64,000 nucleotides of DNA, taken from assembly GCF_900111765.1 (NCBI RefSeq), contig NZ_FOIB01000004.1, forward strand, positions 806,001-870,000, written 5' to 3'. Each line of letters starts with the position of its first letter. Positions within the stretch are counted from its first letter, which is position 1. Under the pieces are notes generated by a model. The model did no database searches and was not told where the DNA came from. It saw nothing but the letters and a program-made list of their open reading frames with translations. This stretch comes from Myxococcus fulvus. Its GTDB lineage: Bacteria > Myxococcota > Myxococcia > Myxococcales > Myxococcaceae. A program made the translations under genes and the position numbers. Below are positions 36,668-45,201 of the stretch, one piece after another.

Positions 36668-37693
36668 TCACCCTTGGGGGTGTGGAGCGGACATGCCCTC
36701 GGGTCGGGGGCGGAAGACGCGGAAGAGGAGGATGACGGAGGGGATGACGATGAGCGCGCCCACGCCGATGGCGACGAGCAGCAGCTTCAAGGTGCCCGGG
36801 CTCGCCGCCGCGGCCCGCAGGGTGATGTCCGGGACCACCAGATAGGGGTACTGGGACGCGGCCCAGCCCAGGACGATGAGCCCCGCCTGGAGCGCCGCCG
36901 CCAGCCGTGCCCACGCGAAGCGCCGCGTCCACAGGAGCGCGAAGGCGGCCGCCGCCGACACGCCCGTGGCCGCGTGCAGCACCCGCGCGAAGGGCGAGCG
37001 CGACAGTCCCTCCCACACCCGGGGCGCACCGTCGCGCGCCAGCACCAGCACGAGCACCGCCGCCACGAAGACGGCCACGCCCGCGCCGAGCGCGCGCGCA
37101 CGGAAGTCCTCGCGCAGCCCTGGCGTGGAGGACTCGTGCGTCAGGTACACCGCCGCCAGGAAGGCGAAGAGGGCCAGGGCCAGCACGCCCACCGCCCACG
37201 CGAAGGGCGACAGCCACGAGGCGAAGAAGCCGCTCATCACCACGCGGCCCTCCACGTGGATGGAGCCGCTCACCACCGCGCCCACGCACATGCCGAGCAG
37301 GAGCGGCGCCACGACGCTCGCCCCGCTGAAGACGAGCCCCCACCGACGCTGGGCCACGTCCCCCCGCGTGTCATAGGTGCGGAAGGTGAACGCCGCGCCC
37401 CGGAACACGATGCCGAGCAACAGCAGCGTCAACGGGACATGCAGCGCCACGCTCAGCGCGGCGAAGGCGCGCGGGAAGCCCGCGAACAGCAACACCAGCC
37501 CGACGATGAGCCAGACGTGGTTCACCTCCCACACCGGGCCCATCGCCCGGGCGATGAGCGCGCGCTGCTCCGCCTTGCGCGGCCCGAAGGCCAGCAAATC
37601 CCAGACGCCGCCGCCGAAGTCCGCGCCACCGAAGAGCGCGTAGAGGACGAAGGTCCCCGCGAGCAGGAAGCCGAGGAGGACGTCAGTGGACAT
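36668..37693 (-). CDS. cydB: Cytochrome bd-type oxidase subunit II
   Basis: The product has 341 residues from an ATG with GGGAGGTGAG; a GTG at 37702 is the next alternative. It has about eight membrane segments, with the CydB start pattern L-L-G-F-L-L-A-G-T-F-V-L-Y-A-L-F-G-G-A-D-F-G-G and G-P-V-W-E-V-N-H-V-W-L near 60. It forms the heterodimer with CydA. Its start overlaps the cydA stop by 11 bp. Confidence 0.93.
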   Translation of the reverse strand: MSTDVLLGFLLAGTFVLYALFGGADFGGGVWDLLAFGPRKAEQRALIARAMGPVWEVNHVWLIVGLVLLFAGFPRAFAALSVALHVPLTLLLLGIVFRGAAFTFRTYDTRGDVAQRRWGLVFSGASVVAPLLLGMCVGAVVSGSIHVEGRVVMSGFFASWLSPFAWAVGVLALALFAFLAAVYLTHESSTPGLREDFRARALGAGVAVFVAAVLVLVLARDGAPRVWEGLSRSPFARVLHAATGVSAAAAFALLWTRRFAWARLAAALQAGLIVLGWAASQYPYLVVPDITLRAAAASPGTLKLLLVAIGVGALIVIPSVILLFRVFRPRPEGMSAPHPQG

Positions 37694-38993
37694 GGGCCTC
37701 ACCTCCCTCGCCGTGCTTCGCCTCGCGCCCCGGCAGCGTGCCCGCCACCTGGCTCAGGAGCAGCGACACCACCACCGCGCCGAGGAACAGGTACACGGCG
37801 GTGAAGGTCCAGAACGGCGCCGCGAGATGCGGCACGGGCGTCACCGCCTCCGCGGTGCGCATGACCCCTCGGACAATCCATGGCTGCCGTCCCCACTCGG
37901 TGACGAGCCACCCCGCCTCCAGCGCCACCAACCCGAGCGGCCCCGACACCAGCCACGCCCGCATCATCTTCGGCCCCGAGGGCCATGCTTTCTTTCGCCA
38001 CCGGTGCACGAGCGTCACCAACGCGAGCAGCGCCATCAGCGAGCCCGTGCCCACCATCACCTGGAAGGCCCCGTGCACCTTGGCCACCGGTGGCCACGTG
38101 TCGCGCGGGAACTCGTTGAGCCCCTTCACCTCCGCGTCTGGATCTCCAAAGGCCAGGATGGACAGGGCCTTGGGGACCTCCACGCCGCCCAGACGCAGCG
38201 GCGCGCCGCGCTCCGTCTCGAAGTGGCCCTCCATCGCCGCGAGCTTCACCGGCTGCGCCTTCGCGACATGCTTCGCGGACAAGTCACCCACGAGCGGCTG
38301 GAGCAGCGCGGTGACACACGCGAGCGGCAGCGCCACCGACAGCGCCTTGCGATGGAACGCCGCGCCGGGATGGCGCAGCAGCACGAAGGCGTGGATGCCC
38401 GCCATGGCGAACGCGCTCGCCTGATAGCAGGACAGCAGCACGTGCGCCGTCTGGTACGGCCAGCCGGGGCTGAACATCGCCACCAGCGGCTGGATGTTCG
38501 TCGGCCCCTCGGGCGTGGCCACGAAGCCCGACGGGTCGTTCATGAAGACGTTGACCAGCGTGACGAAGAACGCACTCGCCGCGCCGCTCAAGGCCACCAT
38601 GACGCCGGAGAACAGGTGGAGGTTGGGCGACACCCGCTCGCGGCCGTACAGGTAGATGCCCAGGAAGATGGCCTCGGTGAAGAAGGCCACGCCCTCCAGG
38701 CTGAAGGGCAGGCCAATCACCTCGCCGTAGCGGCCCATGAACTCCGGCCACAGCAGGCCCAATTCGAAGGACAACATCGTCCCGCTCACCGCGCCCACCG
38801 CGAAGAGGATGGCCGTCCCCTTCGCCAGCTTCTGGCTCAGCTTCACGTAGTCCGCGTCACCGGTGCGCCGCGCCTTCCAGTCGCTCAACACCATGAGCAC
38901 CGGCAACGCCACGCCCGCCGCCGCGAAGACGATGTGGAACCCGAGCGACAGCCCCATCTGCGCCCGCGCATAGAGCAGGTCCGTCATGCGCAT
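37683..38993 (-). CDS. cydA: Cytochrome bd-type oxidase subunit I
   Basis: The product has 436 residues, near the lower end for CydA, with no long quinol-loop insertion, as in the short (cyanide-insensitive, CioA-like) class. Conserved haem-ligand regions are present: M-G-L-S-L-G-F-H-I near the start, and G-R-Y-G-E-V-I-G-L-P and L-E-G-V-A-F-F-T-E-A-I-F near 95-110. It oxidises quinol and reduces oxygen at the inner membrane. The start is ATG 38993 or 38987. No ribosome-binding site is visible because a palindrome sits there. Confidence 0.93.
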   Translation of the reverse strand: MRMTDLLYARAQMGLSLGFHIVFAAAGVALPVLMVLSDWKARRTGDADYVKLSQKLAKGTAILFAVGAVSGTMLSFELGLLWPEFMGRYGEVIGLPFSLEGVAFFTEAIFLGIYLYGRERVSPNLHLFSGVMVALSGAASAFFVTLVNVFMNDPSGFVATPEGPTNIQPLVAMFSPGWPYQTAHVLLSCYQASAFAMAGIHAFVLLRHPGAAFHRKALSVALPLACVTALLQPLVGDLSAKHVAKAQPVKLAAMEGHFETERGAPLRLGGVEVPKALSILAFGDPDAEVKGLNEFPRDTWPPVAKVHGAFQVMVGTGSLMALLALVTLVHRWRKKAWPSGPKMMRAWLVSGPLGLVALEAGWLVTEWGRQPWIVRGVMRTAEAVTPVPHLAAPFWTFTAVYLFLGAVVVSLLLSQVAGTLPGREAKHGEGGEAHVH

Positions 38994-41545: not shown

Positions 41546-41806
41546 TCACGCGTCGTCGCGGCCCAGGTTGACGACGGCCTGGAGTCGGGCCACCACGGCC
41601 TCGGCGCCCTGGTGCAGCTGCTTGCCGTCCCAGAGCGCGGGCGTGGCGTGGCCGCCGTGCAGCGTCCAGTCCAGCTCCGCCTCGGCGTACACGAGGTTGC
41701 GGAAGATGACGCGGTCCTCCAGCGCGTGGTCGACGATGTAGCGGCGCGCCACGGCGGAGGGCGGGTCGGCGATGCGGTGGAACAACTCGAGGGGAGCGGA
41801 GGTCAT
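41546..41806 (-). CDS. Thioredoxin-fold protein without a redox cysteine pair
   Basis: The product has 86 residues. The pattern (E-L-F-H-R beta strand, D-P-P-S-A-V-A-R-R helix, H-A-T-P-A-L-W-D-G-K then G-A-E-A-V-V-A-R-L) fits a glutaredoxin/thioredoxin-like fold with a cis-proline (A-T-P) but no CxxC. Its start overlaps the nsrR stop by 4 bp, so it is the last gene of the NO-response operon. Confidence 0.65.
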   Translation of the reverse strand: MTSAPLELFHRIADPPSAVARRYIVDHALEDRVIFRNLVYAEAELDWTLHGGHATPALWDGKQLHQGAEAVVARLQAVVNLGRDDA

Positions 41807-42249
41807 GGCGCCATCACCGGGAGGAACAGGTCGGCCAAATCCCCGCGGGAGCGGCCCACCAGGTCCGCCAGTGTGTACCGGTCCAGCACCGCGAGGAAGG
41901 CCTCACGTGCCTCCGCGAGCACGCCCTTGAGGCCACAGGCGGGGGCGATGGGGCAGGTGTTGCGCTCGCGGTTGAAGCACTCCACCAGCTCGAAGTCCGG
42001 CTCGGCCGCTCGCAGCACGCGGCCCACGCTGATGTCCTTCGTCGCCTTCGCCAGCGTCACGCCGCCCGAGCGCCCCGCCTTGACCTCCACGAAGCCCTCG
42101 CCCGCGAGCGTCTGCACCACGCGCACCAGGTGGTGCTTGGAGATGCCGTACGCGTCCGCCAGCTCCTGCGTGGAGGCGAGTCTCCCGGGGCGGGCGGCGA
42201 GGTAGAGCAGGACGCGCAGCGAGTAGTCGGCGTGGAGGGTGAGGTGCAC
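41803..42249 (-). CDS. nsrR: NsrR-type Rrf2 transcriptional repressor, nitric-oxide sensor
   Basis: The product has 148 residues from a GTG. The N-terminal winged helix-turn-helix starts L-T-L-H-A-D-Y-S-L-R-V-L-L-Y-L-A, and three cysteines (C91, C99, C105) in the C-F-N-R-E-R-N-T-C-P-I-A-P-A-C-G-L-K pattern are those that hold the iron-sulfur cluster in NsrR. NO destroys the cluster and lifts repression. The operon promoter carries a perfect NsrR-type site. It is 21 bp after the reductase gene. Confidence 0.88.
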   Translation of the reverse strand: MHLTLHADYSLRVLLYLAARPGRLASTQELADAYGISKHHLVRVVQTLAGEGFVEVKAGRSGGVTLAKATKDISVGRVLRAAEPDFELVECFNRERNTCPIAPACGLKGVLAEAREAFLAVLDRYTLADLVGRSRGDLADLFLPVMAP

Positions 42250-42270
42250 GGTCAGCGGGCTCCGACGGCC

Positions 42271-43242
42271 TTACGCCCTGGGCGCGCTCGGCAGGAAGAC
42301 GTCCGCGTGGAGGTCCTTGAGCGAGAGCCCGGAGAGGAAGAGCTTCTTGCGCAGGGATAACACCAAATCGGCGTCGCCGCAGAGCCACGCGCGGAAGCCC
42401 ACCGGCTTGGGGCACTCGGCGCGGATGACGGCGTCGAGCGCTCCCTCGGCCACGTCCCGGGAGCCGCCCGTCAGCACGCTCGGTCGATAGTGGAAACCCG
42501 CGTATTGCTCGGCCAGCTCGCGCAGCTCGCGCGTCAGGTAGAGGCCCTCGGGCGTGCGCGCGCCGTGGAACAGCCAGATGGGGCCCTGGTGGCCCGCCTC
42601 CAGCGCGTCGCGCGCGATGCCGTACAGCGGCGCGAGCCCCGTCCCCGCGCCCGCGAGAATCAGCGACTGCTCGGGGCGGCCGTCGACGTAGAAGCAACTG
42701 CCCGCGGGCCCCTGCACGGACACGGCGTCACCGACGCGGGCCTCGCGAGCGAGCCAACCGCTCATCTCGCCGCCTGGCACCAGGCGCACGTGCAGCTCCA
42801 GCAGGCCCTCGCGAGGGAGGCTCGCCAGCGAGTAGCTGCGGGCCAGGCCATCCGCCCGCAGGAGCGACACGTACTGGCCCGCGCGGTAGTCCAGCGGCGC
42901 GTCCGTGGACAGCCGCACGCGCAGGACGCTGGGGGACAGCGGGTCCAATGCGGCGATGCGCGCGGGGGCCCTGAGTGCGTCCGCGCCGGAGACCTCCAGC
43001 GCGGTGTCCGCCGAGGGGCGGCACATGCAGGCGAGGAAGTAGCCCTGCGCGCGCAGCGTGTCCTTGAGGCCCACGCGCGCGGCCTCCGGGACGTCGCCCG
43101 ACGTCGCGCGCATGAGGCAGGACTGACAGGCGCCGGCCCGGCACGCGTGGGGCACGGCGACGCCCTGTCGCAGGAGCCCGTCCAGCACGCTCTCCTCGGG
43201 CTCCAGCGGATACCACCGCGACTCGTGCTTCACCGTGGCCAT
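42271..43242 (-). CDS. Ferredoxin-type flavin reductase, electron donor to globin
   Basis: The product has 323 residues. The N-terminal plant-type 2Fe-2S domain has Cys at 34, 39 and 42 (C-R-A-G-A-C-Q-S-C) and a fourth at 72 or 74. The FAD domain has R-S-Y-S-L-A-S (about 136) and the NAD domain has L-A-G-A-G-T-G-L-A-P (about 195). It resembles the reductase part of flavohaemoglobin but with a ferredoxin module instead of a fused globin. It should reduce the truncated globin made from the gene 20 bp upstream. Confidence 0.85.
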   Translation of the reverse strand: MATVKHESRWYPLEPEESVLDGLLRQGVAVPHACRAGACQSCLMRATSGDVPEAARVGLKDTLRAQGYFLACMCRPSADTALEVSGADALRAPARIAALDPLSPSVLRVRLSTDAPLDYRAGQYVSLLRADGLARSYSLASLPREGLLELHVRLVPGGEMSGWLAREARVGDAVSVQGPAGSCFYVDGRPEQSLILAGAGTGLAPLYGIARDALEAGHQGPIWLFHGARTPEGLYLTRELRELAEQYAGFHYRPSVLTGGSRDVAEGALDAVIRAECPKPVGFRAWLCGDADLVLSLRKKLFLSGLSLKDLHADVFLPSAPRA

Positions 43243-43262
43243 GGCGAGTCTCCCGGCCTGCG

Positions 43263-43646
43263 TCAGCGGTTGAGGACGTCGGCGCGAGCGCCGCCCGCGA
43301 TGGCCAGCACGCGCGCCACCAGCGGCTCGGGCACGCCCAGCTCCCGGAGCGTCGCGCTCAGGTGCTCCACCACCGCGTCGAAGTGCACGTCGTTCAGCCC
43401 GCGCTTGACCAGGTGCGCGTGGCCCGCGCGCATGTCCTTGCCCGAGTAGTTCGACGGGCCGCCCGTCACCATCGTCAGGAAGGCCTTCTGCTTGGCCGAC
43501 TGGCGCTCCATGTCCACGTCCTCGAAGAAGTGGCTGATGCGGTCGTCCGCCAGCACCTTCCGGTAGAACACGTCGACCGCCGCCGCCATCGCCGGCTCTC
43601 CGCCAATCTGCTCGTAAACGCTCTTCTCCTGCGCTGCCGTGCTCAT
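43263..43646 (-). CDS. Truncated haemoglobin (group I), NO dioxygenase
   Basis: The product has 127 residues from an ATG after AAGGAG; the frame also has a start at 43679. The 2/2 globin pattern is V-Y-E-Q-I-G-G-E, V-F-Y-R-K-V (B-helix Tyr) and M-R-A-G-H-A-H-L with the proximal His. It binds haem and, given NADH via the reductase, would convert NO to nitrate. It is first in the operon. Confidence 0.9.
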   Translation of the reverse strand: MSTAAQEKSVYEQIGGEPAMAAAVDVFYRKVLADDRISHFFEDVDMERQSAKQKAFLTMVTGGPSNYSGKDMRAGHAHLVKRGLNDVHFDAVVEHLSATLRELGVPEPLVARVLAIAGGARADVLNR

Positions 43647-43680
43647 CGCGTCCGCTCCTTCCGCCCGGCTCGGGCTCAAA

Positions 43681-43699
43681 GATGCATTTCAAATGCATC
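43681..43699. promoter_or_regulatory. NsrR-type operator
   Basis: GATGCATTT-C-AAATGCATC is a perfect 9-1-9 palindrome 34 bp before the globin start. It matches the published NsrR box consensus (AAGATGCATTT-N-AAATGCATCTT) almost base for base, including the A before GATG. Together with nsrR in the operon this supports negative autoregulation by nitric oxide. Confidence 0.88.
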
Positions 43700-43785
43700 G
43701 ATTTGAATCGGACGTCAATTCGGAAAGACAAGACAAGCGAATCGAGGGAATCCGCCAACAACGCGGCGCAACGTTTGCGCGAGCG

Positions 43786-44523: not shown

Positions 44524-45201
44524 ATGCCCCACCCTCTCGACCTCGCCCTCACCGCCTCGCTCATCGGAGACCCGGCCCGCGCGGGCATGCTGTCGCGCCT
44601 GCTCGAAGGGCCCGCGCGCACCGCCGGCGAGCTCGCGCAAGAAGCCCGCATCTCGCCCCAGACGGCGAGCGGACACCTCGCGAAGCTGCTCGAAGGCGGC
44701 CTCGTCCGCGTCGAGGTCCAGGGACGCCACCGCTACTACCGGCTCGCCAGCCCCGACGTCGCCCGCGCGCTCGAGGCGCTCAGCCTGCTCGTCCCGACGA
44801 GGCAGAGCACGGTGCGCGTCCCGGAGCCGCTGCGCTTCGCGCGGACCTGCTACGACCACCTGGCGGGCACGCTCGGCGTCGCGCTGGCGGAGGGCCTGGA
44901 GCGCCGTGGCCTGCTGGAGACAGGCGACGACAGCTACGCGCTGACACCCGAGGGCGCGCGCTTCATCACCCGGTGGGGCGTGGACGTGGACGCGCTGTCA
45001 CAGGGCAGGCGCGCCTTCGCGCGACGATGTCTGGACTGGAGCGAGCGCCGCGCTCACATCGGCGGGGCGCTGGGCGCCGCGCTGGCGGAGCGTCTGTTCA
45101 AGCGGCGCTGGATTGCGCGCCGGCCCGAGGGCCGCGGAGTGCGGCTCACCGTCGAGGGCCGGCAGGGATTCGACCGGGAGCTGGGGTTGTCCTGGCCTTG
45201 A
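44524..45201 (+). CDS. ArsR-family transcriptional regulator
   Basis: The product has 225 residues. The N-terminal winged helix-turn-helix reads D-P-A-R-A-G-M-L-S-R-L, then T-A-G-E-L-A-Q-E-A-R-I-S-P-Q-T-A-S-G-H-L-A-K-L and H-R-Y-Y-R-L. No metal-binding cysteine pair is seen at the usual place. A long C-terminal extension looks alpha-helical. It likely represses the divergent flavin reductase. The gene's last ~91 bp are repeated after the stop. Confidence 0.88.
   Translation: MPHPLDLALTASLIGDPARAGMLSRLLEGPARTAGELAQEARISPQTASGHLAKLLEGGLVRVEVQGRHRYYRLASPDVARALEALSLLVPTRQSTVRVPEPLRFARTCYDHLAGTLGVALAEGLERRGLLETGDDSYALTPEGARFITRWGVDVDALSQGRRAFARRCLDWSERRAHIGGALGAALAERLFKRRWIARRPEGRGVRLTVEGRQGFDRELGLSWP

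Follow-up and report, generated by a model that had tools for sequence, protein, structure and literature searches.

A locus of Myxococcus fulvus raises the question of whether the task of the one-chain flavohaemoglobin Hmp, the removal of nitric oxide (NO), can be shared by two separate proteins under a repressor that is encoded beside them. The locus lies in a stretch of 64,000 nucleotides, termed the window here. Four tightly spaced minus-strand genes, which run down to position 41546, lie downstream of a palindromic site. By their coordinates, 20 bp separate the globin and reductase genes and 21 bp separate the reductase gene and nsrR, and the last gene overlaps nsrR by 4 bp. The bacterium most likely removes NO with a separate small globin and its own NADH reductase, which would be switched on by an NO-sensing repressor. 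The features of the locus are the following.

43714–43718, minus strand: TTGAC, a likely −35 element, found ahead of the operator in 49 of 53 family cassettes
43679–43701, no strand assigned: predicted NsrR-type operator, 33 bp ahead of the start codon of glbN
43263–43646, minus strand: glbN, group I truncated haemoglobin of 127 aa, with PF01152 and PDB matches
42271–43242, minus strand: NAD(P)H reductase of 323 aa, with N-terminal 2Fe-2S, FAD and NAD domains
41803–42249, minus strand: nsrR, Rrf2-family repressor of 148 aa, with Cys 91, 99 and 105 and Asp 8
41546–41806, minus strand: 86-aa thioredoxin-like-fold protein without CXXC, its gene overlapping the nsrR stop

The globin matches PF01152 (66.4 bits, cut-off 21), and in the PDB it matches cyanoglobins and group 1 truncated haemoglobins best, which places it in group I. 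Tyr28, Gln49, Gln53 and His76 align to the same residues of the cyanoglobin structure 2hz2, and position 52 is Lys where 2hz2 has His. These residues correspond to the proximal His and a Tyr/Gln distal pocket. Tyr/Gln/Gln/His pockets of the cyanoglobin type are linked to NO dioxygenation. Profile searches of the reductase reveal Fer2, FAD_binding_6 and NAD_binding_1 domains; its 2Fe-2S cysteines are Cys 34, 39, 42 and 72, and residues 117–319 align to the reductase half of Hmp. The M. fulvus genome has four matches to the fused Hmp model (NF009805), none above the cut-off, and the globin and the reductase are separate genes. Like fused Hmp, the pair joins a haem globin to an FAD/NAD reductase; unlike it, the pair consists of two chains, its globin is of the truncated type, and its reductase carries an extra 2Fe-2S domain.

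Upstream of glbN is the perfect 19-bp palindrome GATGCATTTcAAATGCATC at positions 43681–43699. The site at 43679–43701 agrees at 20 of 22 positions with AAGATGCATTTNAAATGCATCTT, which we take to be the NsrR consensus. None of 100 shuffled windows has a match to the operator pattern within three mismatches. In the 10.8-Mb genome the 19-mer is found within three mismatches at one place, 43681–43699, and a reversed control pattern also has one match. A looser operator pattern gives nine places at three or fewer mismatches vs three for the control; the cassette site has no mismatches and the next best has two. The initial annotation had placed a perfect NsrR-type palindrome ahead of a globin, a 2Fe-2S/FAD reductase and nsrR, and both the sequence match and the profile hits uphold this description.

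The arrangement is conserved in the family. The sample consisted of all 96 genomes returned by a search for the window's family, some of which may be incomplete, and this could hide genes; co-occurrence counts over it treat related genomes as separate observations. A glbN gene at 69–100% identity is present in 53 of the 96 genomes, and the same 53 carry NsrR at 63–100%. When the DNA of all 53 cassette loci was taken in, the reductase match was found to start 16–38 bp after the globin match in every one. The nsrR gene stands behind the reductase in 51; in the other two (L182 and L183) the contigs end first, and NsrR is on other contigs. An operator-like site is upstream in 53 of 53, with scores of 15–22 out of 22 (49 score at least 18, and four score 15–16), and in 5300 single-base shuffles of the cassette upstream stretches, 7 reach 15, 2 reach 16 and none reaches 17. 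In the DNA taken around more distant family globins (L190–L194 at 48–56% identity, L195 and L196 at 37%), no match to the reductase, NsrR or the thioredoxin-like protein was found. Several genomes of genus g5 have a second truncated-globin match, about 35% identical (e.g. G117:C1:5794387), which lies inside long open frames of 579–867 aa; these are possible fusions.

The promoter region shows a further conserved property. Of the 53 family cassettes, 49 have the sequence TTGAC in the 50 nt that precede the operator, vs 3.8% of shuffles. Its offset is −17 or −18 in 41 cassettes and −22 in two, and it is absent in four. In six genomes of genus g17 it is at −42, and a second operator-like site, which scores 15–18, follows it. 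The spacing of TTGAC from the operator suggests that the repressor most likely covers the promoter, and if TTGAC is the −35 element, the −10 element of the cassette would likely overlap the operator. In these six g17 loci (L050, L171, L173, L174, L175 and L179) the two operator-like sites ahead of glbN are spaced by 25 bp.

Beyond the family, genome contigs were scanned with the globin alignment, and the best 80 of at least 182 relatives were kept. In 63 of these best 80, a reductase match is on the same strand no more than 250 bp downstream of glbN, and all 63 adjoining reductases have the CX4CX2C motif; one more reductase is 680 bp away. The other 16 of the best 80 loci have no reductase in the DNA taken, and two of these are on contigs that end within 460 bp. 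An NsrR-like match is near 38 of the best 80 (upstream and divergent in 30, upstream in the orientation of glbN in 2, and downstream in 6), and the six downstream loci are all from Acidobacteriota. Among the same best 80 of at least 182 relatives, operator scores are higher when an NsrR is near (p 3e-12, with kinship ignored), and two loci without a near NsrR still score 16 and 18. On Methylocystis plasmids (L052 and L053) the glbN-reductase pair is found near an RNA polymerase sigma-factor gene, and no NsrR is annotated within 4 kb.

In trees that include 13 of the 53 family cassettes, the 13 form one group. Their nearest neighbours in the NsrR tree are the Acidobacteriota (96/91), and five of the six Acidobacteriota loci also take this place in the tree of the reductase (99/98). 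The simplest reading is a single cassette passed on by inheritance, with possible exchange between these phyla and possible movement within the family.

These distributions bear on whether the reductase serves the globin at all. The globin might remove NO while general cellular donors reduce it, with the neighbouring reductase working for another acceptor. The protein does resemble reductases that are partners of oxygenases, such as BenC and MmoC, as well as a P450 reductase, and the 16 loci without an adjoining reductase among the best 80 of at least 182 would fit this reading. However, the reductase is beside glbN in every family cassette and in 63 of those 80 wider loci, and no oxygenase gene was found between the operator and nsrR at the window's locus. 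We regard a different acceptor as unlikely, and favour the reductase as the partner of the globin.

Full-length fused Hmp, at 81% or greater identity to the query, is present in seven of the 96 family genomes and in none of the 53 cassette genomes. The hypergeometric probability of zero overlap between cassette and Hmp is 0.0027, a value that is indicative only, as the genomes are related. In genus g3 three genomes have the split cassette and four have Hmp. A NorR that scores above the curated cut-off divergently adjoins hmp in all seven Hmp genomes; one genome (G070) has NorR above the cut-off and neither cassette nor Hmp. Neither module is found in 36 of the 96, including G084, which has a partial and diverged Hmp-like match. 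NsrR control of Hmp in the sister genomes was considered and rejected: no NsrR match at E 1e-4 was found at the seven Hmp loci or at the partial G084 locus, and at the seven NorR is there instead. The best operator-like scores at these eight loci are 13–15 of 22. In the window's family the split pair appears to take the place of the one-piece Hmp.

NO removal by the pair has also to be weighed against other globin chemistry. The module could provide O2 or reduce nitrite or NO anaerobically, with NO as a signal and not a substrate. The function of a single-domain globin is not readable from its sequence alone, and Gardner (2012; PMC3820574) asks for demonstrated turnover before an NO dioxygenase (NOD) function is accepted. 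A distribution that is exclusive with that of fused Hmp argues against these other roles, which we hold to be improbable, and NO detoxification remains our preferred reading.

The regulator encoded by the third gene is a member of the Rrf2 superfamily by its model score (110.5 bits vs a cut-off of 73.3). It is below the curated NsrR cut-off (NF008240; 120.8 bits vs 182) and below the RirA cut-off too (129.9 bits vs 193), the latter score being slightly above that with the NsrR model. These model scores alone do not decide between NsrR and RirA. The best solved relative is the NsrR of structure 5n07; Cys 91, 99 and 105 align with it, and Asp 8 is also present. We take these four residues to be the Fe-S ligands, as in NsrR.

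The predicted targets of the regulator in related genomes are more informative. The core pattern TGCATTYNNRATGCA at one mismatch has matches in 90 of the 96 family genomes and is too loose for target counts, and the stricter palindrome AAGATGCATTNNNAATGCATCTT, at no more than three mismatches, was therefore used. It is found in 52 genomes, all of them cassette carriers (52 of 53 with the cassette vs 0 of 43 others), and its reversed control has no match in any of the 96. The palindrome is at the cassette in 49 of the 52. The cassette carrier G108 has none, and G121, G125 and G129 have it elsewhere only, at four sites in all; the cassette operators score 15 in G108 and G121, and 16 in G125 and G129.

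All four of these off-cassette copies adjoin NO or nitrite reductase genes. Three precede a gene for a quinol-type NO reductase (qNor). The G129 protein matches chains named ‘Nitric oxide reductase subunit B’ with a best E of 6.5e-243 (phmmer), PF22085 and COX1 are found in both the G129 and G125 proteins, and the G121 protein shares 96% identity. From the site in G121 and G129, a cytochrome-like gene and nosZ are oriented in the opposite direction. The fourth copy, in G121, is between a lipid kinase gene and the gene for a copper nitrite reductase (TIGR02376, 360.6 bits, cut-off 296.3). Perhaps the operator has shifted in denitrifying members. The off-cassette NsrR-type sites in relatives with weak cassette operators are at L198 3498, L199 3155, L200 2983 and L201 3074.

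The qNor genes were also looked at as a group. Twelve are 77–100% identical to the query, and all are in cassette genomes. In each of the twelve the best operator-like site is 122–149 bp upstream, with scores of 13–21; two score 13 and one scores 14, values that are reached by 48 and 10 of 1900 shuffles, respectively. Seven more distant qNor-like genes, of which five come from genomes that lack the cassette and two from genomes that have it, score 10–14; ten further weak or partial matches were left out of the scoring. No qNor match was found in the genome of the window itself, and at this stringency the cassette operator is the sole predicted NsrR target there. A precedent for such a regulon comes from Magnetospirillum, where gel shifts showed binding of NsrR to nor and nos promoters (PMC11014258). 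The sites at NO and nitrite reductase genes are the strongest sequence evidence in support of a regulator that answers NO. The initial annotation had also proposed a split flavohaemoglobin-like pair under its own NsrR, and the proposal gains support from the conserved gene order and operator, from the finding that Hmp is never in the same genome, and from these sites in relatives.

The same evidence bears on RirA-type control, whereby the regulator would sense iron or Fe-S status and the operon would answer iron stress. The slightly better RirA model score, although it too is below its cut-off, is what speaks for it. The NsrR type of the operator and the regulon in relatives, with its off-cassette copies at NO and nitrite reductase genes, favour NsrR instead, as does the NsrR nature of the best solved relative, so that control by iron is judged very unlikely.

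The fourth gene is a different matter. Searches of Pfam and NCBIfam gave no match for the 86-aa protein, and none of the PDB sequences matched it. A thioredoxin/glutaredoxin-like fold is predicted by the best of five models (pLDDT 90.6; the other four have 75.5, 56.3, 47.4 and 39.5), with a best Foldseek E of 2.9e-3. The CXXC (or CXXS) active site is absent in all eight aligned sequences. Of 146 genomes sampled from the phylum, 68 encode a member of its family, and many of these 68 lack the cassette.

All 14 loci of the window's genus among L032–L046 have atpD, a hypothetical gene, atpC, up to two further genes, the cassette and then the thioredoxin-like gene, and in 13 of the 14 an ADP-ribosylglycohydrolase gene is next. 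In six loci from five genera (L160–L165), the thioredoxin-like gene is between atpC and the ADP-ribosylglycohydrolase gene, and the cassette is absent. In genera g5 and g2 the cassette is located elsewhere, without these three genes. Since the gene is beside atpC also where there is no cassette, it is probably a native part of the ATP synthase neighbourhood that has come to lie behind the cassette, and a bystander of the NO module. Between the cassette and atpC the window has a flavin-reductase-like gene (PF01613; 43786–44412, minus strand) and a divergent ArsR-type helix-turn-helix regulator gene (44524–45201, plus strand), both of which vary in presence among the genomes of the genus. Cytochrome bd oxidase subunits II and I (36668–38993, minus strand) are encoded some 2.5 kb past the thioredoxin-like gene; bd oxidases tolerate NO.

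A functional role of the thioredoxin-like protein in the NO circuit might be suggested by the overlap of its gene with the nsrR stop and by the location of that gene no more than 2 kb from glbN, on one contig, in 25 of 25 sampled genomes of the window's genus. From synteny, such a role is judged to be highly improbable, given the loci that have one without the other and the missing CXXC. The self-contained circuit of the initial annotation is supported in part: the regulator is inside the operon and has a conserved operator, but the thioredoxin-fold member finds no support.

The split glbN-reductase arrangement is already known and was proposed for Legionella in 2005. In Rodionov (2005; PMC1274295), the Legionella glbN-lpg2536 operon is the sole NsrR target, and NO oxidation like that by Hmp is suggested; Gardner (2012; PMC3820574) repeats the glbN-reductase proposal. 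As far as these sources describe it, the L. pneumophila operon resembles that of the window in having a truncated globin followed by a reductase, an NsrR site upstream, and the status of sole or nearly sole NsrR target. In both operons the transfer of electrons from reductase to globin for NO oxidation is a proposal. The two differ in that nsrR is the third gene of the operon in the window, whereas the NsrR-like gene of Legionella is divergent. In seven loci of or next to Legionella, the pair is 3–53 bp apart with a divergent NsrR-like gene, and operators score 18–20 of 22. The window reductase has 38–40% identity to the Legionella-group reductases, the L. pneumophila operon itself being compared by description.

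Closer in gene order are six Acidobacteriota loci (L069, L071, L079, L103, L108 and L127), which have the same glbN-reductase-nsrR order and NsrR proteins that are 56–60% identical. They differ in that no thioredoxin-like gene adjoins them at E 1e-6, and their operators score 17–19 of 22. The present analysis adds how the cassette is distributed in the family, that it does not occur together with Hmp-NorR, and that operator-like sites lie at genes of denitrification; no earlier report of these was found in the open-licence literature. No experimental study of such a globin-reductase pair was found in that literature.

The gene identities and order, the operator, the conservation, the absence of Hmp from cassette genomes and the operators at the denitrification genes of relatives are read directly from sequence. 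On this ground we consider it probable that glbN, the reductase gene and nsrR form a three-gene NO-detoxification module under its own NsrR, and we infer its steps of NO sensing, derepression, NO dioxygenation and reductase-to-globin electron transfer. Without NO, NsrR with an intact Fe-S cluster would sit on the palindrome and cover the promoter of its own operon. NO would attack the cluster, NsrR would leave, and globin, reductase and more NsrR would be made. The oxy-globin would convert NO to nitrate. Electrons from NADH would then pass through FAD and the 2Fe-2S centre of the reductase to the resulting ferric globin, and the work of the one-chain Hmp would be shared by two proteins. Once NO is gone, the extra NsrR would close the operon again.

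We incline, by a little, to a broader view as well: that a large class of group I truncated globins, spread over several phyla, has the 2Fe-2S reductase as its dedicated native electron donor, that the cassette is transferable and replaces Hmp-NorR with the regulator included, and that NsrR controls NO and nitrite reduction in denitrifying relatives. The reductase is fixed beside the globin (53 of 53 in the family, and 63 of the best 80 of at least 182 relatives), and this makes the two a defined pair to test. In addition, the either/or occurrence of the cassette and Hmp-NorR within one family means that their functional equivalence would be testable by a module swap.
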